A DNA stretch of 64,000 nt from Paenibacillus thiaminolyticus (GTDB taxonomy: Bacteria; Bacillota; Bacilli; Paenibacillales; Paenibacillaceae): assembly GCF_007066085.1 (NCBI RefSeq), contig NZ_CP041405.1:2232001-2296000 (forward strand), in the 5' to 3' direction. The notes under the pieces were generated by a model. The model did no database searches, was not told the DNA's origin, and saw only the letters and a list, made by a program, of their open reading frames with translations. This document shows, piece by piece, positions 22,213 through 39,023 of the stretch (position 1 is its first letter; every line of letters starts with the position of its first letter). The translations under genes and the position numbers were made by a program.

Positions 22213-22968
22213 ATGATAAGTCTCATTATTCCGACGATCCATCATACGGATCTGGTCAAGCATTGCGTTAACAGCTTCATCAACACGGCCCATGAAGCAT
22301 ACGAAATCATTGTCGTCGATGACGGCAGCCCGCCTCCCATCCAGCAGGATCTGGCCGCCTGGGCCGCCTCGATGAACGTTCGCTTCATCCCCAAGCAGAC
22401 CAACGAAGGCTTCAGCCGGACCGTGAATCTGGGCTTGCAGCACGCCGGCGGGACCTATGCGCTAGTCGCGAACAACGACATCATCTTCCACGAGCCGGGC
22501 TGGCTGCAGCATATGATGGCGGCGATGCAGCTATCGCCGGACGTCGGCATCGTCGGCGCGCGGCTGCTGTATCCGAATATGACGATTCAGCATGGCGGCG
22601 TCATCCAGGGGCCAAAAGGAAATTTCGATCACCGTTACCGCTTCCAGCCCGCCGATCACCCTCCCGCCCAAGCAGTGGAGGACGCGGCTTCCGTCACAGG
22701 CGCCCTGATGCTGATCCGGCGGGACGTATTCGACCGGATCGGCCTCTTCTCAGAGGAATTCTTCATCGCCTATGAAGATGTCGACTTCTGCTACCGCGCC
22801 AGACAGCACGGCTTCCGCGTCGTTTACTGCGGCGCGGCCTGCGCCCTGCATTATGAAGGATTTACGCGCGGGACGACGCGGGCGAATAAAAACTGGTATT
22901 GGCGAGTCAAAGAATTGGAGGCCCGCAAAAAATTCTGGGTCAAATGGGGAGGTTATCACATCCAATGA
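22213..22968 (+). CDS. GT2 family glycosyltransferase
   Basis: The 251-residue inverting GT-A enzyme resembles rhamnosyltransferases. IIPTIHHTDLVK opens the fold, VVDDGSPPP binds the nucleotide, and LVANNDIIF provides the DXD-like metal site at about residue 90. GALMLIRRDVFDRIG and FIAYEDVDFCYRA complete the family pattern (about 160-200). The start at 22213 follows AAAGGAGAA that overlaps the previous stop codon. The stop TGA overlaps the ATG of the next gene (ATGA), a sign of translational coupling. Predicted role: chain extension of the surface glycan. Confidence 0.87.
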   Translation: MISLIIPTIHHTDLVKHCVNSFINTAHEAYEIIVVDDGSPPPIQQDLAAWAASMNVRFIPKQTNEGFSRTVNLGLQHAGGTYALVANNDIIFHEPGWLQHMMAAMQLSPDVGIVGARLLYPNMTIQHGGVIQGPKGNFDHRYRFQPADHPPAQAVEDAASVTGALMLIRRDVFDRIGLFSEEFFIAYEDVDFCYRARQHGFRVVYCGAACALHYEGFTRGTTRANKNWYWRVKELEARKKFWVKWGGYHIQ

Positions 22969-24002
22969 GTGCGCCGCTAGAAGTTGTCTATGTACTGGAG
23001 CTAACCGGATTGTCCGGCGGCATTCGCAATGTGCTGGAGCAGGTGAACCGGCTGCATGAGATGGGTCTGAAGGTTCATCTGTTCGCGCTGGATGACCAGC
23101 CTTCCTGGTTCCCGCTGCAAATCCCGGTGCGCCGCTTCCCGAACTATCGGATGATGCTCCATACCCTGAAATGGATGGATTGCATCAAGGTGGCAACCTG
23201 GTGGAAAACGCTGGCCGTCGTCTGGCACAGCTGCGATCGGCGCCGAGGCGGACGAGGCGTCCCGTTCTATCTCGTCCAGGATATCGAAGAAAGCTATTAT
23301 CCGAATTGGCCGGATATGCAGGAACGGGTCCGCCAAACGTACCGAGTCCCGGTTCATATGCTGACGATTGCCGATTGGACGACCCGACAGCTGCTGGAAC
23401 GGTTCCATCAACAGGCAACCAACATCTCGATAGCCGTTGATTCCAACATCTACAAGCCGAACCGGACCCACGACTACGATCCGCGGCGCATTCTTGCCTG
23501 CAGCCGCCGCAGCCAGCATTTGAAGGGCTTCGATATCACCGTGCAGGCCGTGACGTCGGCATGCCGCCAGCTGCCCCATGCTTCCTTCGTCACGTTCGGC
23601 GTCGAGCCTCCCGGCATTTCAGGCATACCGCATCATCATTTCCCGAACCCTCAGGATCAACAGTTGGCCTACCTGTATGCCAACTGCGGCGTATTCGTAC
23701 AGACCTCCTACCACGAAGGCTTCGGGCTCCCGATTTTGGAGGCGATGGCCTGCGGAGCGCCCGTTGTCACGACGAGAGCGGAGGGCAATGAGGAATTTTG
23801 CAAGGACGGATGGAACTGCATCCTCGTCAACAAGGGCGACGCCGATGGAGTGGCCCAGGGCATCGTCAGGGTGCTGTCCGATCCGGAATTGTCCCAATTC
23901 CTCGTCGCCAACGGGTTCGAGACCGCCAAGCATTACAATTGGCCCCGCGTAATGAACAATCTGTTGAACGCGTTCCACGCCAGACTGCCGCAGCAGGTAT
24001 GA
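22965..24002 (+). CDS. GT4 family glycosyltransferase
   Basis: The 345-residue GT-B enzyme opens VVYVLELTGLSGGIRNVLEQVNRL, the usual acceptor loop. It carries CSRRSQHLKGFDI in the donor domain, with YHEGFGLPILEAMACGAPVVTT as the donor-site motif (about residues 245-266). Its ATG at 22965 overlaps the previous TGA. It is the last gene of the rightward manC run and is followed by a strong hairpin at 24022-24051. Its similarity to the STGYAK-type neighbours is limited to the donor half, so its acceptor is likely different. Confidence 0.84.
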   Translation: MSAPLEVVYVLELTGLSGGIRNVLEQVNRLHEMGLKVHLFALDDQPSWFPLQIPVRRFPNYRMMLHTLKWMDCIKVATWWKTLAVVWHSCDRRRGGRGVPFYLVQDIEESYYPNWPDMQERVRQTYRVPVHMLTIADWTTRQLLERFHQQATNISIAVDSNIYKPNRTHDYDPRRILACSRRSQHLKGFDITVQAVTSACRQLPHASFVTFGVEPPGISGIPHHHFPNPQDQQLAYLYANCGVFVQTSYHEGFGLPILEAMACGAPVVTTRAEGNEEFCKDGWNCILVNKGDADGVAQGIVRVLSDPELSQFLVANGFETAKHYNWPRVMNNLLNAFHARLPQQV

Positions 24003-24021
24003 TGCTTGCGGCAGCATGCAA

Positions 24022-24051
24022 AATCGCCAGCTTCCCTGTAAGCTGGCGATT
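24022..24051. terminator. bidirectional terminator
   Basis: AATCGCCAGCTT (24022-24033) and AAGCTGGCGATT (24040-24051) form a perfect 12-bp stem with a 6-base loop. It separates the rightward manC run from the leftward operon ending at 24116. The T-rich tail is better on the minus strand (TTTTGC). Confidence 0.75.
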
Positions 24052-24115
24052 GTTGCGCTTGCTCCGCATGTTAACGTTGATGAGGCCAGCATGACAGCCA
24101 GACCTGCAACAGTTC

Positions 24116-24751
24116 TCATCCCGGCATGGCCTCATAGCGGATACCGGCGAATAATTCGTTCCACGCCCGATCGCTGTCCGCATCCCAAGCGATCGGCGCC
24201 TCCACCGCACAGGTATGCGCCAATGGCCAATCGAGCTCCACGATTCGGTGATCAGCCCCCGGATTGACGACGAGCAGGCGGAATTGGTGCCGGACGATCG
24301 AAGCCAGCGCCGCTTCCAATGCCGCCGCCTCCTCATGGGAGGCATGCAGCCGGAAAAAGAAAACCCACTCAGCCTGCTCGATATTGCGGAGGAAGCGGGC
24401 AATTCTCCGCTGCAGCCTCTCCTGGAATTCCGGATATTTCCGGACAATGCCCTCCAACTGATCCGCGACGAGAAAATCGTGAACCGACTGCACCCCGTAG
24501 ACGCGATCCAGCAAGGAATAGTTATGTCCGTTGAACTCCGTTCCGTCCACTTCGATATGGTCGGAGTACATGAATCCGGCGAACCGGTTGCGCAGCAGCA
24601 GACAGAGCCCGGGGATCGAATTGGAGTACATCCAGTCGATGACCCCGCTGTAGGGCCGCAGGCCATACCGCTCCAGCCGCTGCGCCGGATAACAGTTCGA
24701 GCCCAGGCTGTATACCGCCTGATACGTTCGCTTGATGTCAGTCAGGCGCAT
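24116..24751 (-). CDS. DUF1796 family putative cysteine peptidase
   Basis: The 211-residue protein belongs to the DUF1796 family, predicted to have a papain-like cysteine peptidase fold. YSLGSNCYPAQRLERYGLRP (about residues 14-33) carries the candidate nucleophile Cys20. GVIDWMYSNS and NGHNYSLLDRVYGVQSVHDF give a candidate His, and VVNPGADHRIVELD lies near the C-terminus. No biochemical activity is established for the family, so the peptidase role is a fold-based prediction. It is the last gene of a leftward three-gene operon with two glycosyltransferases, suggesting a role tied to glycan or glycoprotein assembly. The start at 24751 follows AAAAGGAGGC. Confidence 0.72.
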   Translation of the reverse strand: MRLTDIKRTYQAVYSLGSNCYPAQRLERYGLRPYSGVIDWMYSNSIPGLCLLLRNRFAGFMYSDHIEVDGTEFNGHNYSLLDRVYGVQSVHDFLVADQLEGIVRKYPEFQERLQRRIARFLRNIEQAEWVFFFRLHASHEEAAALEAALASIVRHQFRLLVVNPGADHRIVELDWPLAHTCAVEAPIAWDADSDRAWNELFAGIRYEAMPG

Positions 24752-24812
24752 TGCTCTTGCCTCCTTTTCGTATGTGTTCAAAAATTCTCGGAAGCATACG
24801 CAAATGCGGATG

Positions 24813-25466
24813 TTACGTAGCCAGATTGAATGGAACCGAGTAGGTCTCCTGCGCCATCCGTCCTCCCCATTTCAGCTCGTAATATCGCTCATAGAGCGGC
24901 CAGGTCGAATCGATAAGGAAATTGAGGCGGGGATCCGACTTGCGTGAAGAGCTCTCATGATGATCTACCGGCAGCCCTGTGAAAATCTCTTCATATCCTG
25001 CCAGGCGGAGCCTGCGATGATAGTCGATGTCCGCAAAATAACTGCTGAACACCGTATCCCACGGCCCCGCCGCGCGGACCGCATCCATATTGTAGGCCGC
25101 CAGCGCATCGAAATTCGTCAAGGCCAGCCCCCACTTCCGTCCGCTCTGCTTCAGCGCCGTCAAGACGCGAAGGAAGGCTTCAGGGGTTCCCGGATGCGCC
25201 TCTGCATCCGTATGCATATACATGACCGCATCCGCCTCCTGCTCAGCGGCAATTCGCTGGAACCAGTTCATGGACTGGGTGAAGGTCAGCGGGACGGGCG
25301 GATGGATGATGTTCACCAGCTCGTTCAAGCCGGCATGGCCCTTCAGCTCGGAATCTGCCGAATTATCCAGCACGTACGTATGCGGCCAATAGGGGCGAAT
25401 GCTGGCAACCGCCTGGTGCAGCAGATCAAGACGGTTGACATACGGGATGCCAACGATGTAACGCAT
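24813..25466 (-). CDS. GT2-like glycosyltransferase
   Basis: The 217-residue protein has a short GT-A-like fold: YIVGIPYVNRLDLLHQAV at the start, YVLDNSAD as the nucleotide loop, and VMYMHTDAEAHPG as a plausible DXD-type metal site near residue 82. FSSYFADIDYHRRL follows, at the place where family 2 enzymes carry the catalytic acid region. It is shorter than typical family 2 proteins and lacks a C-terminal extension. The start at 25466 follows GGAGAG. The upstream GTG at 25475 would leave no spacing. It lies 16 bases after the 790-residue glycosyltransferase and is likely co-transcribed. Confidence 0.72.
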   Translation of the reverse strand: MRYIVGIPYVNRLDLLHQAVASIRPYWPHTYVLDNSADSELKGHAGLNELVNIIHPPVPLTFTQSMNWFQRIAAEQEADAVMYMHTDAEAHPGTPEAFLRVLTALKQSGRKWGLALTNFDALAAYNMDAVRAAGPWDTVFSSYFADIDYHRRLRLAGYEEIFTGLPVDHHESSSRKSDPRLNFLIDSTWPLYERYYELKWGGRMAQETYSVPFNLAT

Positions 25467-25482
25467 TGCCGTCACTCTCCAT

Positions 25483-27855
25483 TCATATCAATTGTATGCG
25501 GTCGGCAATATGCTGCGCGGCATGCGACCACGTCCAGCGGGACATCACTTCCTGCGCGGCGTTCCGTCCGCGCTCCCGGGCCGCTTCCCGGTTCTCGTAG
25601 ACATGTCTCATCAAATACGCCAAATGCTCATAGTCCGGGTCGGCCCAGCGGAAATTGGTATAGTACGGGCATTTGGCAACCGCCGGTACAAGCTGTTTGA
25701 CCTTGATCGGATATCCCGTCCGCTCGTTCAGGAAGTCGCGCTGCGCGCTCCAGTCCGTGGCAATGACTGGCAGGCCGCATGCCATCGCCTCCAGTATCGG
25801 CATGCCCCATCCTTCCCCCCGGGTCGGCAATAGGAAGCAATCCGCGGACCGGTACAGGCTCCCCAGCAAATACGACGGGAGCTTCTGATTGTACAAAATC
25901 ATTATCTTCGATTCGACATGCTTGAGATTCAGCTTGCGGATTTCGGCCAACACGTTGATCGTCGGGTCGGCGTTCATGATTTTGCATACGAGCAGGACAT
26001 CGTCATGAGCGAAAACGTTGGCGAAGGTGCGGAGCATATCCTCCGGATTTTTGCGTTCGCCCCACTCGAATACCGATAGAAACGTGAACCGATCCGAGAA
26101 GCGGGCCGAACGGATGCCGGGATGGAAATAGTTCGGGTCCACGCCGAGCGGCATAATGCGGATCGGCACCCTTACCCCGCTGTGGCGGAACGTATCGGCA
26201 TTGAACCGGGACGGCACCCATATCTCATCCATGCAATTGCATTGATGGATCCATTCCCCTGGAACACCATCCACCTCCAGCATCGTGTAGCCAATTTTGT
26301 ACTTGCCCTCATTTTTGTAAAAGACATCCCCTTGTCCATAGACGACTTCCGGCGCATTGGGATCGGCATGGCGCATGCGAAAAATATTGATCCGGTAATC
26401 GTCGCTCATCGGGGGCTCTTCCGCGGCATGCGGAGTGCCCAGGCCGTACACATAACGGTAATGCATCTTAATCCGTTGCTCGTCGAGCGCGATCATCAAA
26501 TTTTTGGATGATGTCGCATAGCCGGTTGGCGCATTCACGATCGAATGCCAATTCAGCCTTCTCTCATAGCTTCCTTCGAGCCGAGCCTGCCATTTGTCCC
26601 GAAAGATCATGCGCGATTGCTCGAACAGCCCGGAGAAATCGACTTGATTCACCTTTGTCGTCGTATTCTGGGAGTGGGTCAACGTTACCCGGCCGTCGCA
26701 GACGACCCGGTAGCCCTGCTCCAGTACCCGAAGACAATAATCGGTATCCTCAAAATAAGCGAAATAATCGGTATCTAGACCGCCCAGCTCCTCTATGATA
26801 CTCCGCTTCACGTAAGCGCAGGCAAAAACGACCCCTTGCACATCCCGCGCAGACGGATATTGGCGGATATCCGTCTCCTGCCCGCCGATCTGCTGCCCCC
26901 AGCAGGTCTCCGCGAAAATAAAGGTGCCTGCGTGCTGCACCAGTCCGTCGTCGCCGCGCAGCCGGCAGCCGACGATGCCAATATTCGGATCCGAATAGGC
27001 CGTCTCCTGCAGCCGTTCCACCCACTGTGGCTCCTCCGCCACGATATCGTTGTTCAGCATCAGAATATCGCTGCCGGGATCGCAATGAGCCATGGCCAGG
27101 TTGTTGCCTGCCGTAAATCCGATGTTCGCGCCATGCTCAATCACTCGAATCCAGGGGATGCTCTGCAGATAAGGAAGCGTGCCATCGGTGCTGCCATTAT
27201 CGAACACCACGATCTCAATTCGTTCGTGACGGGCCGTCTCCTCCAGAGAATCGAGGCACCTCTTCGTATGCTCCAATCCGTTCCACGTCAAGATGACAAT
27301 CGATACCTTGCGCTGCAGAGGCGGAGCCGGCTGCGCCGGGGGCTTCGTCCCGGTCACTTCCTCGGGAACCAATTGGAAGCTGCCGAGCTCAATTGTCCCG
27401 TTCAAGCGCGGGAGATCCGGTTGCACGATCAGGGCTTGGCACTCTGGCGACGTAAGTATTGCTAGCAGGATCGATATGCGGCTTCTTCCGGTCCGCAGCA
27501 TATGTTGGTAGTGAATGAGCGCTTGGTCTTCGACGTCACGGCAGAGCAGTTCCACGTACAGATCGCGGATGAATTCGGCCTCTCCCCTGTTCAAGATCAA
27601 GCTGGAGATAGTGTGACACAGGGCCGCACGTTCATTGCAGCCCGCTCCTCGCTGCGCTATTTTCTTCTTCATCTCGTTGCTGCGAAGGAAGCTGACCACG
27701 ATCGACAGCTTGCTATGGCCGGCTTGAAGCAGCCGGGTGAAGTGCCTGATGCCGTTCGGTTCCGGTTCCTTATTCAGAAGCTGGCTATATAATTCTGCGA
27801 TGAATTGCTCGCCTTCCAATCGGAACAACAAGTAGAGCCTTTGGATCAGTATCAA
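25483..27855 (-). CDS. bifunctional glycosyltransferase: DUF4214 x2, GT2, GT4
   Basis: The 790-residue multidomain enzyme has two DUF4214-like modules (about residues 14-68 and 90-145, e.g. FIAELYSQLLNKEPEPNGI and FIRDLYVELLCRDVE). A family 2 domain follows (about 183-425; SIVILTWNGL, VFDNGSTDG, LMLNNDIV, YFAYFEDTDYCLR). A family 4 domain ends it (about 435-785; GYATSSKNL, VWVPSRFN-like IWVPSRFN, RGEGWGMPILEAMACGLPVIATD). It should add two sugars in sequence. I place the start at TTG 27855, because GGAGGG lies 7 bases before it. The longer GTG start at 27873 has no ribosome site. It heads a leftward operon with 24813 and 24116 and is divergent from 28063. Confidence 0.85.
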   Translation of the reverse strand: MILIQRLYLLFRLEGEQFIAELYSQLLNKEPEPNGIRHFTRLLQAGHSKLSIVVSFLRSNEMKKKIAQRGAGCNERAALCHTISSLILNRGEAEFIRDLYVELLCRDVEDQALIHYQHMLRTGRSRISILLAILTSPECQALIVQPDLPRLNGTIELGSFQLVPEEVTGTKPPAQPAPPLQRKVSIVILTWNGLEHTKRCLDSLEETARHERIEIVVFDNGSTDGTLPYLQSIPWIRVIEHGANIGFTAGNNLAMAHCDPGSDILMLNNDIVAEEPQWVERLQETAYSDPNIGIVGCRLRGDDGLVQHAGTFIFAETCWGQQIGGQETDIRQYPSARDVQGVVFACAYVKRSIIEELGGLDTDYFAYFEDTDYCLRVLEQGYRVVCDGRVTLTHSQNTTTKVNQVDFSGLFEQSRMIFRDKWQARLEGSYERRLNWHSIVNAPTGYATSSKNLMIALDEQRIKMHYRYVYGLGTPHAAEEPPMSDDYRINIFRMRHADPNAPEVVYGQGDVFYKNEGKYKIGYTMLEVDGVPGEWIHQCNCMDEIWVPSRFNADTFRHSGVRVPIRIMPLGVDPNYFHPGIRSARFSDRFTFLSVFEWGERKNPEDMLRTFANVFAHDDVLLVCKIMNADPTINVLAEIRKLNLKHVESKIMILYNQKLPSYLLGSLYRSADCFLLPTRGEGWGMPILEAMACGLPVIATDWSAQRDFLNERTGYPIKVKQLVPAVAKCPYYTNFRWADPDYEHLAYLMRHVYENREAARERGRNAAQEVMSRWTWSHAAQHIADRIQLI

Positions 27856-27933
27856 TAAAAATCCCTCCAGCACTTGCGGATCATACTGGGATTAGTGTAT
27901 TAGCACAATCTCCCCTTTGCCTGTGCGTATGAC

Positions 27934-27973
27934 CTTGGCTCACGCATCACCTGAAGGATCCTGAGGAGCCAAG
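27934..27973. other. hairpin in the divergent intergenic region
   Basis: CTTGGCTC (27934-27941) pairs with GAGCCAAG (27966-27973) across a 24-base loop. It lies between the divergent starts at 27855 and 28063, so it is more likely regulatory than a terminator. No T-tract follows. Confidence 0.3.
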
Positions 27974-28062
27974 TCCGCCTTACGGCCCGGTGAGCTAATT
28001 CCCTCTTCCGCTGAATAGGATGAAGAGAAGGCAGCACGGTCAGAACAGGGAGGGGAACTCGA

Positions 28063-29472
28063 ATGGAGCTTCGCTATTGGGTAGCGAACGGCAGCCATAT
28101 GTCCGTCATTCGTCAGGACGGAGACGGACTGGTCATTCAAGTGCTGGAGCACAGCCGGTCCGTCCGGACGGCGGAGCTGCGGCTGACCGAGGCTGCTGGC
28201 ATGTATGATGTATGTCAGGACGATCAGGACTACGTCCATCTTGTATATCTCAACCGCCATCAGCAGTTGGTGCACGCCCGGATTCATCCCGATCAGGAGG
28301 AGCCTCAGACAAGCAAGCTGCCGGGGGAATACGCCGGGCTTGCCGGCTTGAAGCTGGCATGCTGCGCGAACCGGCTCCACCTCTTGCTGCAGTATGCTTC
28401 ACACGTCGAGCATACGGCGCTCACGGGGATCCACTGGCACGAGCCTGCCGTGATGGCGGAAGCGGACCGCGTCATTGCCATGCAGTGGCTGACGAGCGAA
28501 CGCTCCCTGTCAGCCTGCGGCCTGCTAATGAGACAGGGCAGGCATCTTCTGTGCCGCTGGAATTACGACTCCTCGTCCGGTACGTGGAGTGCGGCGGGAG
28601 AAGGAATGAATCTTCCTCCGACAGACGCCGGCATCCCCTCGCGCCTCGTTCGTCTTCCTGCCGGCGCCGTTCCCGCACCGGAGCGTGCCCGTTGTCTCCT
28701 GGTCCGGCTCCTAGCCGGTCAGCTCGCGTTCGCCATCTATGAATCCGAAGCGGACGGAAGCTGGCAAGCGATCGCCGAAGAAGCGATAGCCATTCCTGCC
28801 TCTCCGGCTTCTGTCATCGCCTGCGCCGCCGATCCCGAACGGCTCCGCTTCAGTTGGGCAGCAGAGGGGATGATCTGCCGCATTGATTACGAGCTTGCCG
28901 GGAATATCTGGGGACCGCTGTATTCCAGCGCCTCTGCCCATCCGGTCCTCTGGTGCGCGGTCACCGGAGCAAGCTCCGGCGGGCCGGAACCGCAATGGAT
29001 TACCGATGGCCCCTCCATTCGGGAGGCGATCCGCTGGAGCGGAATGGAGCTCGACCTCTACCGGGCCGATCGCGACTTCCGATCCAGCATTCATTTCGCG
29101 AAGCAGGCCCTCGCCGCCGTCGAGCGGCTCTCCGGCCGCATCACGCCCTTGGAGGAGGAGCGAAAGGAGTTAGAGCAGTGTCAGTTAATGGTTCAATCCC
29201 GGATTGCCGATCTGGAACGTCGCCTCTCCATCTTGGAGGAGGAACTTCGGATTCGCCGTTCCATCCGGCAAGCTAACCGTCTTCGGCCCAACAATCGGCG
29301 GATATCTGAGGAGGGGCACCATGGACAGAGGGGGGAGGCCCCCGTCGAAGCTTCCTTCCATTCTACTCTGTATGCCGCCCATTCACGCCCGCCCTTTCAG
29401 ACGCCGCAACGCCGCAACGCCGCTGCCGAGCCGTCTTTGCAGCCGGCGGCCGGCAAGCCGCCGTCGAACTAG
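28063..29472 (+). CDS. unknown protein: propeller-like repeats plus C-terminal coiled coil
   Basis: The 469-residue protein matches no family I recognise. Residues about 1-345 are rich in short beta strands with regularly spaced Trp/Tyr/Leu-His positions (HLVYLNR, HLLLQYAS, FSWAAEG), consistent with a beta-propeller. Residues about 345-405 form a strong coiled coil (ALAAVERLSGRITPLEEERK, then LEQCQL and LEERRLSILEEE-type heptads). The tail (410-469) is basic and Pro/Arg-rich, probably disordered. It has no signal peptide. The same layout recurs in the 425-residue protein at 36986-38263 with little sequence identity. The start is close to GGGAGGGG. It begins a rightward run reaching 32064 and may scaffold surface assembly. 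Confidence 0.6.
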   Translation: MELRYWVANGSHMSVIRQDGDGLVIQVLEHSRSVRTAELRLTEAAGMYDVCQDDQDYVHLVYLNRHQQLVHARIHPDQEEPQTSKLPGEYAGLAGLKLACCANRLHLLLQYASHVEHTALTGIHWHEPAVMAEADRVIAMQWLTSERSLSACGLLMRQGRHLLCRWNYDSSSGTWSAAGEGMNLPPTDAGIPSRLVRLPAGAVPAPERARCLLVRLLAGQLAFAIYESEADGSWQAIAEEAIAIPASPASVIACAADPERLRFSWAAEGMICRIDYELAGNIWGPLYSSASAHPVLWCAVTGASSGGPEPQWITDGPSIREAIRWSGMELDLYRADRDFRSSIHFAKQALAAVERLSGRITPLEEERKELEQCQLMVQSRIADLERRLSILEEELRIRRSIRQANRLRPNNRRISEEGHHGQRGEAPVEASFHSTLYAAHSRPPFQTPQRRNAAAEPSLQPAAGKPPSN

Positions 29473-29529
29473 GCGCACCCGCCGCCTCATGCCTCTTCAG
29501 GAGATTACGCATAAAGTGAGGTGCTTCAC

Positions 29530-30021
29530 ATGACCGAACCGCAAGCTGCCGTCCAGGCGGCAGAATGCCTGTTCCAATCTGTGGTCGATTTCGACACGGA
29601 GGCGGAGCGCGTGTCCGTCTTCGTCACGATGCTCTTCCGCAACGCCGGCTCCGAGCCGATCGAACAGCCTCGTATTATCCTGTCCGTCACCCCGTCCCGT
29701 TCCTGCGACATCAGCGGCAAAATTCTGTCTCCTCAGCTCATTCCCGCCTTCAGTATCTACGGGAAGGACGGCCGGAAATCGGGCTGGTCCTTCACCGAGG
29801 ATGAATGGTTCGCCAACGGCAAGGCCACCGGGGAATATGTCATTCAATCGATTGAACCGTTGACGGTGCCCCCCGGCGTCTGGCTGGAAATGCCGGACTT
29901 CCATATCTCCTGCGCCATAGACAGCCTGCGGGACGGCCCGCTTGCCATCCATGGGCTATTGGAAGCCGGGGAAGCGCGTTTTCCGGTGCTTAACCCGATT
30001 CATATCCACTGCAGCTTCTAA
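29530..30021 (+). CDS. unknown 163-residue beta-rich protein
   Basis: A protein of unknown family. It has a repeated strand pattern (ECLFQSVVDFDTEAERVSVF, RIILSVTP, YVIQSIEPLTVPPGVWLEMP) that suggests an immunoglobulin-like or C2-like beta-sandwich. The first 40 residues contain FVTMLFRNAGSEPIEQPRI, a sequence style of conserved intracellular beta domains rather than secreted ones. There is no signal peptide. The start at 29530 follows GAGGTG. It lies between the propeller-like protein and a methyltransferase in a rightward run, so it probably belongs to the same pathway. Function is unknown. Confidence 0.6.
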   Translation: MTEPQAAVQAAECLFQSVVDFDTEAERVSVFVTMLFRNAGSEPIEQPRIILSVTPSRSCDISGKILSPQLIPAFSIYGKDGRKSGWSFTEDEWFANGKATGEYVIQSIEPLTVPPGVWLEMPDFHISCAIDSLRDGPLAIHGLLEAGEARFPVLNPIHIHCSF

Positions 30022-30142
30022 GACGGTCTGTTATTTTTGTGCGAACGACTAGAGAACTTGCCTCCGCGCTTGAATAGAGTAATGAAGCAGCTGTTGTCCC
30101 GGGGTGATCTGTCACTTCGGGCTCGCCGATAAGGAGGGCATC

Positions 30143-30712
30143 ATGAGACATATCATCAAAAATTTGGTAGCCATCTGTACGCAGATTTTGCCGTGCGAAG
30201 AGCCGATTTATGAATTCGGTTCCTATCAGGTGGAAGGACAGGTTGGATTTGCAGACTTGCGTCCATTTTTCCCGGGGAAAACGTATGTGGGCTGCGATAT
30301 GCGGCCGGGTACCGGTGTCGATCTCATCCTCGATCTCCATCACATCGCGCTCCCTGACGAGACGGCCGGGATGGTGCTCTCGCTCGATACGCTGGAGCAT
30401 GTCGAGGATCCGCGCCTTGCGTTATCTGAGATTCACCGTATCCTGAAGCCGAACGGCATCGTCGTCATCAGTTCGGTGATGAATTTCCCGATACATGATT
30501 ACCCTGCGGATTATTGGCGGTTCACCCCACAAGCCTTCGCCAGCATTTTGAAGCCGTTCGATACCGTCATTACGGATTACGCCGGGGAAGCCTTGTTCCC
30601 GCATACGGTCATCGGCATCGGCATCAAGGGAAGCGACGTCCCGGAGCCGGTCCTGGCGCAGCTCCGCGCTGCCTTGGCCCAATGGAGAGAGAACAGCTTC
30701 CACCAGCATTAA
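30143..30712 (+). CDS. class I SAM-dependent methyltransferase
   Basis: The 189-residue protein has a Methyltransf_11-like core. IYEFGSYQVEGQ occupies motif I, YVGCDMRPGTGVDLILDLHH supplies the acidic loop and the following helix, and LSLDTLEHVEDP with ILKPNGIVVISSVM are motifs IV and V (about residues 76-120). The C-terminal half carries HDYPADYWRFTPQAF, common in methyltransferases of capsule clusters. The start at 30143 follows AAGGAGGG. It does not resemble the duplicated methyltransferases at 5801 and 7721, so the locus has several methylation activities. Confidence 0.82.
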   Translation: MRHIIKNLVAICTQILPCEEPIYEFGSYQVEGQVGFADLRPFFPGKTYVGCDMRPGTGVDLILDLHHIALPDETAGMVLSLDTLEHVEDPRLALSEIHRILKPNGIVVISSVMNFPIHDYPADYWRFTPQAFASILKPFDTVITDYAGEALFPHTVIGIGIKGSDVPEPVLAQLRAALAQWRENSFHQH

Positions 30713-30786
30713 GCTGCGTAGGCGAAGCAGACCCGCATGACACTGAATTGGCGGTTCACGCGATTTCAGGCCGGAAGGAGGGAGGA

Positions 30787-30801
30787 ATGAAGAAGATATG
30801 A
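30787..30801 (+). promoter_or_regulatory. four-codon upstream ORF before the CatB-like gene
   Basis: ATG AAG AAG ATA TGA is placed after AAGGAGGGAGG. Its stop overlaps the ATG of the acetyltransferase gene (ATGA at 30798-30801). The spacing of the ribosome site fits the small ORF better than the main gene, so the gene may be translated by re-initiation or coupling. Confidence 0.35.
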
Positions 30802-31346
30802 GCGTTTTTATGAACCAAAACCCGGCCTATTCCGCCTACTCCATCGGGGATTGGAGCTACGGTCACCCCGATGTCTTTTCCTGGGGGGAGGGAGCTACCC
30901 TGACCATCGGCAAGTTCTGCTCCTTTGCCGGGCGGATCACGATTCTGCTGGGAGGGGAGCATAATGTTGACTGGGTCACGACCTACCCGTTTAATCCGAT
31001 TTTTCCCGAGGCCTCGCCTTTTACGGGGCATCCGAAGACCAAGGGCAATGTTGTCATCGGCCATGACGTCTGGATTGGAATGGATTCCTACGTGCTATCG
31101 GGCGTAACGATCGGCCATGGGGCCGTCATTGCGGCCCGCAGCACCGTCTCCAAAGATATTCCGCCGTATGCGATTGCCGGCGGCAACCCGGCGCGCGTCA
31201 TCCGGTACCGGTTCCCGCCGCATATCATTGAGGGCCTGCTGAGCATCGCCTGGTGGGACTGGCCGCTGGAGCAGATTCGAGCCTGTTGGCCGCTGATGCT
31301 CTCGAATCGAGTAGAAGAGTTTGTCCAGCTTTATTCAGCCCGATAA
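30798..31346 (+). CDS. CatB-type O-acetyltransferase (left-handed beta-helix)
   Basis: The 182-residue protein has the hexapeptide-repeat pattern of the CatB/VatD-like xenobiotic and sugar acetyltransferases (LTIGKFCSFAGRITILLGG, VVIGHDVWIGMDSYVLSGVTIGHGAVIAARS). The catalytic His is expected in GGEHNVDW (about residue 54). The substrate-side insertion with YPFNPIFPEA is typical. In a glycan locus, the acetylation target is probably a sugar hydroxyl rather than an antibiotic. The start overlaps the four-codon ORF upstream. It is followed at 20 bases by a methyltransferase gene. Confidence 0.85.
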   Translation: MSVFMNQNPAYSAYSIGDWSYGHPDVFSWGEGATLTIGKFCSFAGRITILLGGEHNVDWVTTYPFNPIFPEASPFTGHPKTKGNVVIGHDVWIGMDSYVLSGVTIGHGAVIAARSTVSKDIPPYAIAGGNPARVIRYRFPPHIIEGLLSIAWWDWPLEQIRACWPLMLSNRVEEFVQLYSAR

Positions 31347-31365
31347 CGATGGAGGGAGAGCGACA

Positions 31366-32064
31366 TTGATCCATTTTTGGAATGCGATTATACGCCCGGT
31401 TCTGGAGCTTGCCCGGCCCGCGACTGTCGTCGAGGTCGGCTGCGCCCAAGGGTGGAATACGTTGAATCTTCTCAGCTACGTCCAGTCGGTTCCGCAAGGC
31501 CGGCTCATCGCCATCGATCCTTCGCCTCTGTTCGATGTCGCCGCTCTGCAGCAGCAGTTCGGGGACATCTTCGTCATGCTCCCCGATCTCAGTCTGAACG
31601 TGCTGCCGCAGGTGGGCGCTTGCGATGCGGCGCTGCTGGACGGGGATCATAATTGGTACACCGTCTACCATGAACTGAAGGCACTGGAAGGACGCGGGCG
31701 GTACCCAATCGTGTTTTTGCATGATTTGGAATGGCCTTACGGAAGAAGAGACATGTATTATTTTCCGGAGTCGATACCCGAAGCTTACCGGAAGCCGAGC
31801 GCCCGCAAAGGCATACTGCCGGGGGTGAATGAATTGGTCGAAGGCGGCCATAACTCATCCGTGCATAATGCCGAGTACGAGTACGGGGAGAGAAATGGCG
31901 TCTTGACTGCCGTAGAGGACTTCCTTCACGATACGAAGCTTCGCCTCCGGCTCCACCGGGCCCGCAGTCAATTCGGCCTCGGAATCATCGTTCCTGACGA
32001 ATCGGTGGAAGACCATCAATTGAACGATGCCATTCATCATATCGTTGCCGCCTCTGGCCTATAG
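31366..32064 (+). CDS. class I SAM-dependent methyltransferase
   Basis: The 232-residue protein starts at TTG 31366 after GGAGGGAG (31351-31358). The motif I VVEVGCAQGWNTLNL (about residues 20-34), IAIDPSP and AALLDGDHNWYTVYHELK (about 88-105) with FLHDLEWP follow the Methyltransf_24/CmcI pattern. The middle segment with GRRDMYYFPES resembles sugar methyltransferases such as those acting on capsule or lipopolysaccharide sugars. It is the last gene of the rightward run and is followed by a perfect 13-bp hairpin. It shares only the fold with the methyltransferases at 5801 and 7721. Confidence 0.83.
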   Translation: MIHFWNAIIRPVLELARPATVVEVGCAQGWNTLNLLSYVQSVPQGRLIAIDPSPLFDVAALQQQFGDIFVMLPDLSLNVLPQVGACDAALLDGDHNWYTVYHELKALEGRGRYPIVFLHDLEWPYGRRDMYYFPESIPEAYRKPSARKGILPGVNELVEGGHNSSVHNAEYEYGERNGVLTAVEDFLHDTKLRLRLHRARSQFGLGIIVPDESVEDHQLNDAIHHIVAASGL

Positions 32065-32087
32065 CGCCCGGACATAGCGATGATGCC

Positions 32088-32121
32088 ATGATCCGCAGAC
32101 TACATATCGTCTGCGGATCAT
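32088..32121 (+). terminator. terminator at the end of the glycosylation run
   Basis: A perfect 13-bp inverted repeat, ATGATCCGCAGAC (32088-32100) and GTCTGCGGATCAT (32109-32121), lies 24 bases after the last methyltransferase. There is no T-tract, only TTGG, so it may slow or stabilise the transcript end rather than be a strong terminator. Confidence 0.55.
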
Positions 32122-32258
32122 TGGCCTGCGCTCAAGACGTTACTGCTGGATACATATTCGGCCCCCATTTGGTCCCCGCCGCCTCCATTGTGATTAAATT
32201 GGGAAATTTTCATGATAGTTTCCCTACAGCTTTAGTACAAGCATTTAAAGAACTCTCT

Positions 32259-32267
32259 CATATTGTA
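32259..32267 (+). promoter_or_regulatory. sigma-K/E-like -10 box of microprotein 1
   Basis: CATATTGTA fits CATANNNTA and lies 24 bases before the first microprotein. The same box and flanks (CTCTCATATTGTA versus TTCTCATATTGTA) recur before the second copy, so the promoter was duplicated with the gene. CATTT lies 12 bases upstream in both. A canonical -35 is not clear. Confidence 0.45.
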
Positions 32268-32291
32268 GTATTAAGAAAGGAGGTGGCTTGA

Positions 32292-32378
32292 ATGAGACGT
32301 CGTCGTAGAGCAATCACTATTATTCTTCACCGGGGTCAAAAAGTATTGGTAGAGTGCAGACGCCGTAGAAGACGCTAA
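32292..32378 (+). CDS. Arg-rich 28-residue microprotein, copy 1
   Basis: The peptide reads MRRRRRAITIILHRGQKVLV, then ECRRRRRR. Eleven or more arginines flank a hydrophobic ITIILHRGQKVLVEC core. Support for translation is the near-perfect AAGGAGGTGG at about 32277-32286, the paralogue 328 bases downstream with the same GQ-VLVEC core, a matching -10 box and a hairpin after each. It matches no family I know. The composition suggests nucleic-acid or anionic-polymer binding, and the neighbourhood (YjcZ-like, CgeB-like) suggests the spore. It is 28 residues long, below usual annotation cut-offs. Confidence 0.65.
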   Translation: MRRRRRAITIILHRGQKVLVECRRRRRR

Positions 32379-32432
32379 TTATTCATTTTATGAAGCGTCG
32401 AACCTTGCCCCACTCCCTGTATATCCGTAAGA

Positions 32433-32463
32433 AAAAAGCCTCGGACTAATTCCGGGGCTTTTG
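32433..32463 (+). terminator. terminator of microprotein 1
   Basis: AAAAGCCTCGG with CCGGGGCTTTT gives a stem around an ACTAATT loop, followed by TTTTGCC. The loop sequence ACTAAT is shared with the terminator at 32794, supporting duplication of a whole transcription unit. Confidence 0.65.
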
Positions 32464-32587
32464 CCGTATATGTTTGATTTGCAGCACAGACCCGCCAGTA
32501 CATTGCTAGCAGAGCTCCTTTTCAGCGCGGCGAATCTTTCATGTTACTTTCCCCGTATCTTAAGTCCAATCATTTGAAGTACTTTCT

Positions 32588-32596
32588 CATATTGTA
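32588..32596 (+). promoter_or_regulatory. sigma-K/E-like -10 box of microprotein 2
   Basis: CATATTGTA is identical to the box at 32259-32267. It is placed 23 bases before the second microprotein start, with the flanking CTTTCTCATATTGTA similar in both copies. Confidence 0.45.
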
Positions 32597-32619
32597 TTTT
32601 AAGGAAGGGGGTGGGTTGA

Positions 32620-32715
32620 ATGAGACGTCATCGAAAAAAAATAATCACAGTTGTTCTGCACCGTGGTCAAAGAGTATTGGTGGAGTGCAAAAAACGTAAA
32701 AGACATTGTTGTTAA
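32620..32715 (+). CDS. Lys/Arg-rich 31-residue microprotein, copy 2
   Basis: The peptide reads MRRHRKKIITVVLHRGQRVL, then VECKKRKRHCC. It shares MRR, the -IIT/IT-(I/V)-LHRGQ-VLVEC core and a basic C-terminus with the 28-residue copy, but uses Lys in place of Arg and ends in two cysteines. The ribosome site GGAAGGGGGTGG precedes it at about 32602-32613. Conservation at the protein level despite many base changes argues that both are real genes. Cys at the C-terminus and in the core could crosslink in a coat layer. A hairpin terminator follows at 32794. Confidence 0.65.
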   Translation: MRRHRKKIITVVLHRGQRVLVECKKRKRHCC

Positions 32716-32793
32716 GGGCATTTTTGGTAATTACCCGTTTTGTGGAGCACCCGTCGAACCATGCTCCGCCCCGTGTATACTCGTAAGAAAACA

Positions 32794-32816
32794 GCCTCGG
32801 ACTAATCCGAGGCCTT
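32794..32816 (+). terminator. terminator of microprotein 2
   Basis: GCCTCGG (32794-32800) pairs with CCGAGGC (32807-32813) around ACTAAT, followed by CTTT. It lies about 80 bases beyond the stop. Confidence 0.65.
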
Positions 32817-32922
32817 TGCCGTATATGTTTGATTTACAGAAAAAGCCCTGCTGAAGTGGCAGGGCATGCGATGAACGTGAATCATGAGCGCAGGATACAA
32901 CCATGTTAATCCATGTTAATCA

Positions 32923-33045
32923 TTAGTAGATAAATCCACGAGAAATAATGACAAGCAAGATAAACAGAACCAAGATTACACCAATAGAAGTAAAGCCTCC
33001 GAATCCACATGAGAAGCCTCCAACACCTCCAACAACACCGCTCAT
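32923..33045 (-). CDS. YjcZ family sporulation protein
   Basis: The 40-residue protein is Gly-rich at the start (MSGVVGGVGGFSCGFGGFTS) and ends in a single membrane helix with a VLFILLVI core. This is the YjcZ/YczN/SscA-like pattern found in many Bacillales, where small coat proteins of this type help assemble the spore coat. A GAGGAGG ribosome site lies 8 bases before the ATG at 33045. A CATATCAT box about 50 bases upstream resembles a sigma-E -10. The gene runs opposite to the microproteins and is the clearest spore marker in the window. Confidence 0.85.
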   Translation of the reverse strand: MSGVVGGVGGFSCGFGGFTSIGVILVLFILLVIISRGFIY

Positions 33046-33489
33046 AAGCCAACCTCCTCTCTTCTCGGTACTCACATGATATGAAATAAGCCGGGTTTTG
33101 ACTTGGCTTGGACCCATTTAGAGAAAATTAGGCTTTGTCCCCTAGCTGCTTCAATCTCCGAGCCCAAGCTGTCGACCGTGCGCTTTTGCTGCATGTCGTC
33201 GATCCGGGACTGGGTCAGTTGACGGCCAAGGCCATCGCTGACACTCTGCTGCTGGATATTTCTTCGGGATCAAACCACGCTTACATACTGGTATAAAACG
33301 CCAACATTATGGACGCCTAATCCGGTGTCACCGCGGCATTTTCCATCTCTCGAACCCGCCGCGCCCTGCAAGATTGTGTGAATGAATCTAGTAAATTCAT
33401 CCAAGCCAAGCTTTTCCCTCCTTCATAAATTAGTAAAGTAGGAGGACATCCCACCGTCCTTCGAACACATGATGAAGGAGGTTTTCCCT
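33046..33489. other. intergenic region with a possible gene remnant
   Basis: No confident gene was found in this gap. A minus-strand frame from 33257 to 33072 reads LTQSRIDDMQQKRTVDSLGSEI-like sequence without a start codon. It looks like the end of a decayed gene but I cannot name it. The right side carries a CATAAATTA box (33424-33432) before the next gene. Confidence 0.4.
33424..33432 (+). promoter_or_regulatory. sigma-K/E-like -10 box
   Basis: CATAAATTA fits CATANNNTA and lies 58 bases before the start at 33490. The -35 side has no clear AC element. Confidence 0.35.
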
Positions 33490-34125
33490 ATGCCACTCAT
33501 TCCTATCCAACGGCTTACAAGCAGCACGGCGAATGTCGTGTCCGCTGCAGATCGGGTCACGGCCGTGAACAGTCTCTTGTCAGGAGCGGCACCCAATGTC
33601 GTCAATGTTGGGAACGCACCGCTTATATGGCCTCAGCTCGCCAAATTCGATAATGACAATACGTCGTTCGCAGCCGTGCCCAATCCGCAATTTGTCTGGA
33701 CCCAGCCAACCTTTATTCCAGGCGAGACGCATGGCTTCGCGGCCGCGTCCGTTACGATCCCGTTACAGATCGGAGTTGTCAACGACTTCTTGCTTGCGTT
33801 GACTGTTTTTGCCGACAATGCGGTTACGGCGCGTATTCAAGCCTTCTCCTCTCTCGGCATCAACCTATTCCCGGTACCAGGGCTGGACGTCGATTTGAAT
33901 GCGGGTTCGCTCAATCCGGTAACCGGAATTACGACAGATGTCGCCAATCCGTACAACTGGCAAAATGTCCGCTTCTATTCGATTCCGGCTTCTCTTGGAC
34001 TGATCTCTATCAATATCGGCCTTCGCTTCGTCTTCTCGTTCCAGGTGACGAACTACTTGACGAATGGCGCTATCAATACAGCCGGGCTCGCCTTTGCCGC
34101 CGATATTTACCAGAACGTTATCTAA
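33490..34125 (+). CDS. unknown 211-residue structural-type protein, copy 1
   Basis: No family is recognised. The protein begins MPLIPIQRLTSSTANVVSAA and is beta-rich. It shares with the following gene a defined N-terminus (MPLIPIQR..., SAADR, LLSG-APNVV) and an ending of FAFAADIYQNV or FAFAAEVYQSV. Its interior is rich in Asn/Thr/Val and nearly free of Cys and Lys, as in self-assembling surface proteins. There is no signal peptide. A GAAGGAGG site precedes the ATG at 33490, and a sigma-K/E-like box lies upstream. The place between the YjcZ-like and JAMM genes suggests a spore-surface or appendage role, but that is inference. Confidence 0.7.
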   Translation: MPLIPIQRLTSSTANVVSAADRVTAVNSLLSGAAPNVVNVGNAPLIWPQLAKFDNDNTSFAAVPNPQFVWTQPTFIPGETHGFAAASVTIPLQIGVVNDFLLALTVFADNAVTARIQAFSSLGINLFPVPGLDVDLNAGSLNPVTGITTDVANPYNWQNVRFYSIPASLGLISINIGLRFVFSFQVTNYLTNGAINTAGLAFAADIYQNVI

Positions 34126-34225
34126 GCAAGTCAACTGCTCATTTTCCAACCAATGGTTGGCCGCATGTTTTCCGCCATGCTCGCGCTTGCGGGCATGGCA
34201 ACCTGTGGTAAAGGAGGAGGCCGTC

Positions 34226-34861
34226 ATGCCTTTGATTCCGATTCAACGGATCGTCAGCCATGAGCGCAGCGTGATATCAGCCGCCGATAGAGCCGCAGCG
34301 GCGGCACAACTCTTGTCGGGGGGCGCCCCCAACGTCGTCCATACGGCCAAGCTGGCTTGGCAAGAAAGCATTCTCGCCTCGCTCATCGATAAATACAGCG
34401 AGTTCCTGCCGGGGCCGATGCCCGAACTAATCGCGCCGCCTGCCGGTCCCAAGCGGAATGAAAGCAGAGGCTTCGCGGCCCAGACCTATCCGATCCGGCT
34501 GGAAGTTCCAGATCCTGTTTTTATCCGCTTCTGTATATACGATCCGGCCCGCACCCATCTCCGGATCGATCTCTGTAACATCGAGAAGCTCAATATGCTG
34601 GAGGCTCCCGTTCCCCTCATGATCGGGGGTCAGCCGTCCACGTCCCTGTTCTGCTCCCGGACCGCCGACCGCCGCAGCGGCAAAGCAACGCAGCTCATAC
34701 GCTGCTACAGCATCCCAATCCAGTTCGATCCGGCTTTCAACGGCCTTGATGTCCAGTTTCTCTTCTCCTTCGAGCAAGCTGGCTCTTCTCCCTCAAGCGA
34801 GCCTCATATGAGCGGGTTCGCCTTCGCAGCCGAGGTCTATCAATCCGTGCAGGGCAAATAG
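34226..34861 (+). CDS. unknown 211-residue structural-type protein, copy 2
   Basis: Paralogue of the previous gene with exactly the same length. The MPLIPIQR start, SAADR(A)A, LLSGGAPNVVHTA and the F(A)FAAEVYQS ending are conserved, while the middle (about residues 55-180) has diverged strongly. Copy 2 has a strand-rich segment with RFCIYDPARTHLRIDLCN and two or more Cys. Its ribosome site is AAAGGAGGAGG, and a small hairpin lies about 30 bases before the start. The equal lengths with low identity suggest an old duplication under a size constraint, e.g. subunits of one assembly. Confidence 0.7.
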   Translation: MPLIPIQRIVSHERSVISAADRAAAAAQLLSGGAPNVVHTAKLAWQESILASLIDKYSEFLPGPMPELIAPPAGPKRNESRGFAAQTYPIRLEVPDPVFIRFCIYDPARTHLRIDLCNIEKLNMLEAPVPLMIGGQPSTSLFCSRTADRRSGKATQLIRCYSIPIQFDPAFNGLDVQFLFSFEQAGSSPSSEPHMSGFAFAAEVYQSVQGK

Positions 34862-38366: not shown

Positions 38367-39023
38367 ATGGAGAGCAAGTTGGTTCAAGGGCAACAGACGC
38401 CCCCCGAATATTTGCCTTTACCCTCTCTGGAATGTATAGAGGTTCCCAAAATATTCGACTGGGTACTGAAAACGACCCAAATTGTTGATGAATCCACGGT
38501 AGATTCTAGTTGCTTGCCTCTGCCCCTTTCGTTTCGTATTGAGGCCAGAGTTCTTAACGTGAATTGCGAAGAAAAAGTCGGATCCACCCGTGAAAATGTG
38601 GTGGTTACGATAGGCGGCAGACCGGTTACGCTGCAGCGGGTAGTGCTGCGGAAGTTCGGCACGTATGAAGTGACAATTATCAACACGGGGGTAACGCCTA
38701 ACGTCGTCCATTGCCGGTTCACGAAGGACTTCATCCGCTTCGAAAAGGTTCTGCTGTGCGCCCCGCCTGGAACCACCATCGACTGCCATATCGTTCCGGA
38801 AGCGACGACGATCGACGTGCTGGATATCGTCAATAACAAGTTCGTGAACGTGGATATCGTCATTTGCCAGAGCATTCAAGTGAAGGCGACGGTCAAAATG
38901 ATGGTAGAAGCCGAATTGTGCCAGCCGCGCGCCGAAATCCCGATTCCTGAAAGTCCTTGCGTTGTCACTTTCCCTCAACAATGCCCTGACGTCTTCCCAG
39001 GTGCACCTTATCCGTTCCCTTAA
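38367..39023 (+). CDS. SPOCS/DUF3794-like Cys-containing protein
   Basis: The 218-residue protein carries KIFDWVLKTTQ near residue 28, a central strand-rich block with GTYEVTIINTGVTP and FEKVLLCAPPGTTIDCHIVP, and a C-terminal VDIVICQSIQVKATVKMMVEAELCQPR. That last pattern is what I recall for the SPOCS/DUF3794 family of spore cortex/coat assembly proteins, although the match is from memory and incomplete. It has seven or more cysteines, few for its length but well spread. There is no signal peptide. An AAAGGAGG site precedes the ATG and a CATAGACT box, sigma-E -10-like, lies about 40 bases upstream. It is likely a spore-coat protein. Confidence 0.55.
   Translation: MESKLVQGQQTPPEYLPLPSLECIEVPKIFDWVLKTTQIVDESTVDSSCLPLPLSFRIEARVLNVNCEEKVGSTRENVVVTIGGRPVTLQRVVLRKFGTYEVTIINTGVTPNVVHCRFTKDFIRFEKVLLCAPPGTTIDCHIVPEATTIDVLDIVNNKFVNVDIVICQSIQVKATVKMMVEAELCQPRAEIPIPESPCVVTFPQQCPDVFPGAPYPFP

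Follow-up and report, generated by a model that had tools for sequence, protein, structure and literature searches.

A family of short, strongly basic microproteins with sporulation-type promoters, represented by two tandem genes in Paenibacillus thiaminolyticus

Two tandem micro-ORFs of Paenibacillus thiaminolyticus belong to a real and overlooked family of basic microproteins. The window, by which we mean the whole stretch of 64,000 nucleotides that was analysed, lies in a genome of 6.61 Mb in a single contig, and annotation often skips genes of about 30 codons such as these. We give roughly even odds (a probability of about 0.5) to the reading that the microproteins are polycationic building blocks of the spore envelope, made by the mother cell, that help pack the coat. 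The initial annotation had described two tandem transcription units, and the ORFs, boxes, ribosome sites and hairpins were all found where it had put them, as follows.

32235..32239, + strand: upstream promoter element of gene 1, reading GTACA where relatives have GTCCA (from anchored upstream rows)
32259..32267, + strand: -10-like element of gene 1, CATATTGTA (CATAnnnTA), 33 bases before the start
32276..32284, + strand: ribosome binding site of gene 1, AAAGGAGGT, read from the sequence; the upstream stretch reads AAAGGAGGTGG
32292-32378, + strand: gene 1, 28 aa, MRRRRRAITIILHRGQKVLVECRRRRRR (ORF translation, own-genome search and profile A1)
32434..32462, + strand: hairpin with ACTAAT of gene 1, -18.3 kcal/mol, z -4.07, followed by a short T run
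32564..32568, + strand: upstream promoter element of gene 2, GTCCA
32588..32596, + strand: -10-like element of gene 2, CATATTGTA, 32 bases before the start
32605..32612, + strand: ribosome binding site of gene 2, AAGGGGGT, read from the sequence; the upstream stretch reads AAGGGGGTGG
32620-32715, + strand: gene 2, 31 aa, MRRHRKKIITVVLHRGQRVLVECKKRKRHCC (ORF translation, own-genome and profile searches)
32743..32768, + strand: hairpin TGGAGCA...TGCTCCG in the 3' untranslated part of gene 2, recurring after several genus paralogues
32794..32813, + strand: hairpin with ACTAAT of gene 2, -14.8 kcal/mol, z -3.36

Each unit had also been credited with its own ACTAAT terminator. The two hairpins are indeed stable, but the T runs that follow them on the + strand are short (4 for gene 1 and 3 for gene 2), and a terminator scan that needs 5 T in 8 bases listed neither on that strand; we therefore regard them as good hairpins and only moderate terminators. 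The same scan listed the hairpin at 32794..32813 as a terminator-like site on the - strand. The transcript of gene 1 probably ends at 32434..32462 and that of gene 2 probably at 32794..32813, the latter possibly shared with the - strand. Several paralogues are likewise trailed by similar ACTAAT-type hairpins. A shared DNA repeat as the driver of the family was rejected, given that the hairpin motif AAGCCTCGGANTAATCCG also occurs away from family genes and is thus not the mark of the family; with up to 2 mismatches it was found 8 times forward and 7 times reverse in the genome (0 and 1 in the reversed control), several palindromic sites being scored on both strands. The same terminator-like hairpin is carried by a spacer (AAAGCCTTGGAGTAATCCGGGGCTT) of a CRISPR array at 5,770,247 of this genome (L043), and the spacer may derive from a phage that uses the hairpin.

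The family has a common layout, with a basic tail, a hydrophobic strand, an L-x-(P/R/E)-GQ turn, a second hydrophobic strand, Cys or Ala, and another basic tail. Across 44 aligned members, the turn region never varies at its L and G and hardly at its Q; some members have Glu instead of this Gln. Among 64 distinct extracted members, length runs from 24 to 45 residues (median 31; forms of 50 aa exist beyond these), the median net charge is +11 with His left out, the median number of acidic residues is 1, and the K+R+H fraction is 0.33-0.60. The two window proteins have computed pI values of 12.0 (gene 1) and 11.6 (gene 2) and computed charges at pH 7 of about +12 and +11, respectively. On reading the sequences, we found two short hydrophobic runs split by the GQ turn, not one continuous stretch, and no evident membrane span or export signal; the two runs flanking the turn suggest a hairpin. 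One AlphaFold2 model of moderate confidence had a mean pLDDT of 77, rising to about 90 in residues 11-20, and speaks neither for nor against the hairpin; a Foldseek comparison of this model with the PDB gave no match.

The view of the initial annotation that no described family matches held up, as neither the window proteins nor the 44 members have a credible match in Pfam, NCBIfam or the PDB. The window proteins met no Pfam or NCBIfam family at E up to 1; the best values for the 44 members were 0.053 and 0.1, none over a cut-off, and a PDB sequence search returned no credible match to the family. A literature search covering titles and abstract starts showed no such family among the matches listed, which is weak evidence of absence. 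The proteins could instead bind nucleic acid or ribosomes in the mother cell, as a basic hairpin that late in sporulation sits on RNA, on ribosomes or on the DNA of that cell, for instance as a degenerate L36-like piece. They are strongly basic, two database members (P0021 and P0023) bear the UniRef name '50S ribosomal protein L36', and one of the 44 members weakly matches type B L36 (E 0.1, NCBIfam). However, that single member is the only one to touch the L36 model, no L36 model turned up in Pfam even at E up to 10, and the pair of N-terminal cysteines typical of L36 is missing from most members. Homology to L36 was thus rejected, the UniRef name is apparently a mislabel, and we consider a role on nucleic acid or ribosomes unlikely.

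Searching the genome with the gene 2 protein recovered gene 1 at E 7.8e-7 and three further copies, giving five in all: the window pair, another tandem pair and one single copy. Profile A1 found gene 1 at E 2.3e-14, although this profile contains the gene 1 sequence.

5,420.7-5,421.2 kb of the genome, on the strand opposite to the window pair: second tandem pair (L014)
1,064.7 kb of the genome: single copy (L036)

The initial annotation was right about the window pair; the duplicate pair at 5.42 Mb and the spread of the family lay beyond its view. The absence of homologues from other genomes, which would have spoken against function, is excluded by members in the genus, family and class sets (all genome counts, including those for the phylum, include the own genome). 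A single-sequence search found members in 7/19 genus genomes. In the family set, profile A1 (E up to 0.01) gave 36/295 genomes and profile A3 (E up to 0.001) 37/295, and 12 of the 19 genus genomes had no member detected by A3. Profile A2 (E up to 0.01) gave 39/398 class genomes, with a best E below 0.001 in 31; the other eight had weak matches (best E 0.001-0.01), several of which sit within long frames and are probably chance. Across the phylum, A3 matched 9/299 genomes, seven of them at E 0.004-0.009; the credible ones are the own genome and G742, whose match (MNRRRCHRRRRVRVINLRPGQTAVVRCRCCCND, E 1.3e-6) comes with a box and a ribosome site. Named relatives with members include Paenibacillus dendritiformis, P. 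popilliae and other Paenibacillus, and 29 database proteins match, the named ones being 'hypothetical protein' of Paenibacillus. A release factor 2 adjoining a member in genus g25 is that of Alicyclobacillus (95 percent). Members appear to occur in Alicyclobacillus (G353; G494, A. macrosporangiidus), and also, as far as we can tell, in Brevibacillus (G515, Brevibacillus marinus; G483, B. humidisoli). In several Paenibacillaceae loci (L015, L166, L154 and L158), members were seen by reading in a region with lexA-like and glutamine-synthetase-like genes, which suggests an ancestral position of the single copy.

In 23 genus members compared over a core of 20 codons, 244 of 253 pairs had at least 4 differences; across these pairs, which are not independent, pN averaged 0.19 and pS 0.37, and pN was below pS in 231. 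Purifying selection therefore acts on the family within the genus. Together with the paralogues in the own genome, these counts bear out the earlier argument that conservation at the protein level argues for function. They also bear on whether the conserved thing is a noncoding RNA or DNA element in which the reading frame is incidental. Conservation at the genus level does extend outside the frame, and there are hairpins downstream; however, the protein is conserved across genera despite different flanks, pN lies below pS in nearly all of these pairs, and no Rfam match reached the gathering score in positions 31000-34000. We regard such an element as highly improbable.

The genes share a conserved promoter of roughly GTCCA-N19/20-CATAnnnT, with CATATTGTA as its -10-like part. 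An identical upstream box in each unit had been noted from the start and is real; what had been missed is its nature as a sporulation-type -10 element. CATAnnnTA lies 28-45 bases before the start in 23/23 genus members of the set, and in the 150 bases upstream of 66 extracted members it occurs 36 times, each time at a distance of 29-41 bases from the start. CATAnnnT stands at 28-45 bases in 34/43 distant members and in few places elsewhere, compared to a mean of 1.0 and a maximum of 5 in 500 shuffles of the 43 rows. Counting distinct distant members, it was found at 26-46 bases in 33/42; the exact box is missing in the other nine, four of which are near-identical copies (L087, L089, L091 and L093). 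Eleven members were found later, one without a start, and the exact box is present in 5 of the 10 readable ones, while 4 of the remaining 5 read AATAnnnT at 37-39 bases. In genus rows, GTCCA, GCCCA, GCACA or GTACA stands some 19 bases ahead of CATA. When 33 distant rows were anchored on the box, C was found at -23 in 26, at -22 in 27 and at -17 in 23, and downstream there was A at +10 in 25, T at +12 in 25 and A at +13 in 29; these columns were not used in selecting the rows. A GGAGG-like site precedes nearly every start of the extracted members, but since the choice of start favoured or required such sites, they are no independent evidence in those member sets.

The pattern GTCC-N17-22-CATAnnnT followed by an ORF with a ribosome site occurred 30 times in the fetched loci compared to 1, 0, 1, 4 and 3 times in permuted controls, in loci that were picked because they hold members and one of which is present twice (L045 and L164). 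By reading, 22 of the sites are family members, 3 are shifted frames of them and 5 are other genes (9 of the 30 by the script's rough filter); these five alone hardly exceed the permuted controls, some of whose sites are family loci. Genome-wide, the strict form GTCCA-N18-22-CATAnnnTA showed no excess, with 13 sites against 11 in the reversed control. Two of the 13 belong to family genes and 3 stand before other plausible genes, namely one for an acidic protein, one of the YheC/D ATP-grasp kind and one for a protein related to those at 33490-34861. Of the other 8, 4 are doubtful and 4 lack an ORF with a ribosome site in the next 160 bases. The GTCC-CATA type is also found ahead of a DUF2642 gene, of a YheC/D-like gene and, at one locus (L151), of a gene for a YjcZ family sporulation protein that scores over its cut-off.

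CATAnnnTA is the -10 consensus of sigma-K. As for the sigma-K regulon, the CATA-type element of the microprotein genes lies at promoter distance; the -35 region, in which, counted from CATA, CC is conserved at -23/-22 and C at -17, is no clean match. According to PMC517825, yjcZ is a gene of the B. subtilis sigma-K regulon, and a sigma-K promoter has a five-base -35 element 14-16 bases before a ten-base -10 element. Given the resemblance of the box to a sigma-K/sigma-E -10 element, the microprotein genes are likely expressed in the mother cell, and we infer, from promoter sequence, that the factor is most likely sigma-K.

The assignment to sporulation, likely on sequence grounds, is consistent with the company the family keeps. 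SpoIVA was found in 39/39 class genomes with the family compared to 268/398 overall (P 7.5e-8, uncorrected for kinship), and in 31/31 of those with a best E below 0.001 (P 2.6e-6, likewise uncorrected); family and SpoIVA counts were taken as the same draw of 398 genomes, and all 39 appear in the SpoIVA list. Conversely, 229 of the 268 SpoIVA-positive genomes have no detected member. With such patchy spread, also evident in the 12/19 genus genomes without one, this is not a core sporulation gene.

Spore genes had been said to lie nearby, and two such features stand out in the window.

32923..33045, - strand: YjcZ-like tiny hydrophobic ORF, 40 aa, convergent, with a CATATCAT box upstream
38367..39023, + strand: BMQ_0737-family morphogenetic spore coat protein, 144.7 bits (cut-off 71), context outside the unit

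The YjcZ-like name rests on likeness, as the ORF at 32923..33045 gave no YjcZ match in Pfam or NCBIfam and the copy at L036 scored 19.9 bits to TIGR01732, below the cut-off of 21.35. At L014 the second pair likewise has a YjcZ-like ORF beside it, as does the single copy at L036, and the arrangement in the window therefore resembles a module that was duplicated. Upstream of the microproteins, positions 22213-32064 hold glycosyltransferase, methyltransferase and hexapeptide-transferase genes, and this run together with the coat protein at 38367 may form a spore-surface glycosylation region. Tandem 211-aa paralogues of 32 percent identity lie at 33490-34125 and 34226-34861 (+ strand); the first has no Pfam or NCBIfam match. 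A 207-aa relative (L178; 34 percent identity, E 4e-19) has a GTCCA-CATA promoter in front of it, and the paralogues are possibly spore surface proteins. In at least two loci (L128:7757-7942 and L142:7778-7963), a conserved 61-aa hydrophobic protein beginning MNQI lies just upstream of a microprotein gene and has the same promoter type; the L128 copy matched nothing in Pfam or NCBIfam.

We compared neighbouring genes of at least 50 aa across the window, two more stretches of the own genome and 40 fetched pieces that were 12-19 kb long. No conserved neighbour of this size was common to most loci; the widest cluster covered 11 loci with ATP-binding proteins at scattered distances, and YjcZ-containing frames, among others, recur in a few. 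This result weighs on the idea that the mother cell releases a cationic peptide, antimicrobial or lytic, for sibling killing or as an aid to its own lysis. Short cationic proteins with hydrophobic strands, a sporulation-type promoter and several copies in this genome would suit it, yet such genes would have no common exporter among conserved neighbours of that size, and the 31-aa protein had no match by tblastn to plasmids or phages. We consider such a peptide very unlikely. A mobile element was rejected on the same search, which was run with E up to 1 against 72,556 plasmid records and 50,697 phage records.

The mother-cell promoter type, a charge of about +11 with hardly any acidic residues, the lack of an evident membrane span or export signal and the lack of a conserved larger partner make a structural envelope polycation the best reading. 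The two window units would be paralogous genes of a microprotein family that occurs in many spore-forming Bacilli, each transcribed alone in the mother cell from a sigma-K/sigma-E-type GTCCA-N19/20-CATAnnnT promoter, with a good ribosome site for translation. Each product would fold as a short two-strand hairpin, a strand, an L-x-x-GQ turn and a second strand, with tails rich in Arg, Lys and His, and would be deposited onto the developing spore. There, the positive tails could bind anionic envelope material such as acidic coat proteins, surface polysaccharide or phosphate polymers, and this binding may help pack the coat. We infer the hairpin fold, the envelope location and the electrostatic role. 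Elsewhere in the genome (L168:1583-1987; genome 1,622,804), a GTCCA-N-CATA promoter precedes the gene of a 135-aa protein whose Asp/Glu tail is very long, and we speculate that this protein is an acidic counter-partner of the basic microproteins. The initial annotation had offered two ligands, spore DNA and an anionic coat polymer. Known DNA-coating SASPs are forespore products and spore DNA lies in the forespore, whereas the promoter is of mother-cell type, which makes binding of spore DNA unlikely; judged by sequence, an anionic envelope polymer is possible.

Handling of metal or polyphosphate in the sporangium was also considered, with His/Cys-rich tails binding metal ions or Arg/Lys tails binding polyphosphate. 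Some members have long His runs (L098 and L101), and Cys follows the second strand in 49/64. However, His and Cys contents vary, Ala takes the Cys region in 13/64 (a rough pattern), and the gene 1 protein has one His and one Cys. This role seems to us quite unlikely.

Given the turn Gln and the many Lys residues, we considered whether the microproteins could be built-in cross-linkers and substrates of transglutaminase. Tgl (PF20085) was not found in the own genome, and the idea was rejected for this genome; nor was PF20085 found in 5 genus relatives with members (G007, G008, G009, G010 and G016). Tgl was present in 15/42 hand-picked genomes with a member compared to 27/40 hand-picked without a detected one, so there is no positive link between the two. 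In genus g1, Tgl occurs in 1/7 genomes with the family and 11/12 without (Fisher P 0.0017), an anticorrelation that probably represents one clade and so one event. A wider proposal holds that the microproteins are a general electrostatic envelope glue, that GTCCA marks a distinct late regulon, and that the genes were amplified to four or five copies in a Tgl-lacking Paenibacillus clade, with charge packing replacing covalent cross-linking; we think this rather doubtful.

Among known systems, YjcZ (TIGR01732/PF09680) resembles the family in its tiny size (about 25-40 aa), in having the same GTCC-CATA promoter type in one locus (L151) and in a shared neighbourhood, with a YjcZ-like ORF next to the single copy and to each tandem pair in this genome. 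The YjcZ peptide is hydrophobic, though, while the microproteins are polycationic and neither the two window proteins nor the 44 members of A3 match either YjcZ model. In B. subtilis, SscA and comparable tiny proteins, of about 28 aa, are expressed late in the mother cell and act in coat assembly; they are similar in size to the microproteins and probably differ in composition. The alpha/beta-type SASPs are, as the family may be, small, basic-rich or abundant sporulation proteins, but they are longer (about 60-70 aa), are made in the forespore and coat spore DNA, and no SASP model was among the Pfam matches of the window proteins or the 44 members. bL36, finally, is a short basic protein whose name two members carry, and differs in that its profile reaches one of 44 members, at E 0.1 only.

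A selected microprotein family with a sporulation-type promoter, in Paenibacillus and apparently in Alicyclobacillus and Brevibacillus, offers concrete sequences for existing spore proteomes. If the microproteins do pack the coat by charge, this would be a principle of coat assembly without a description among the literature matches listed.
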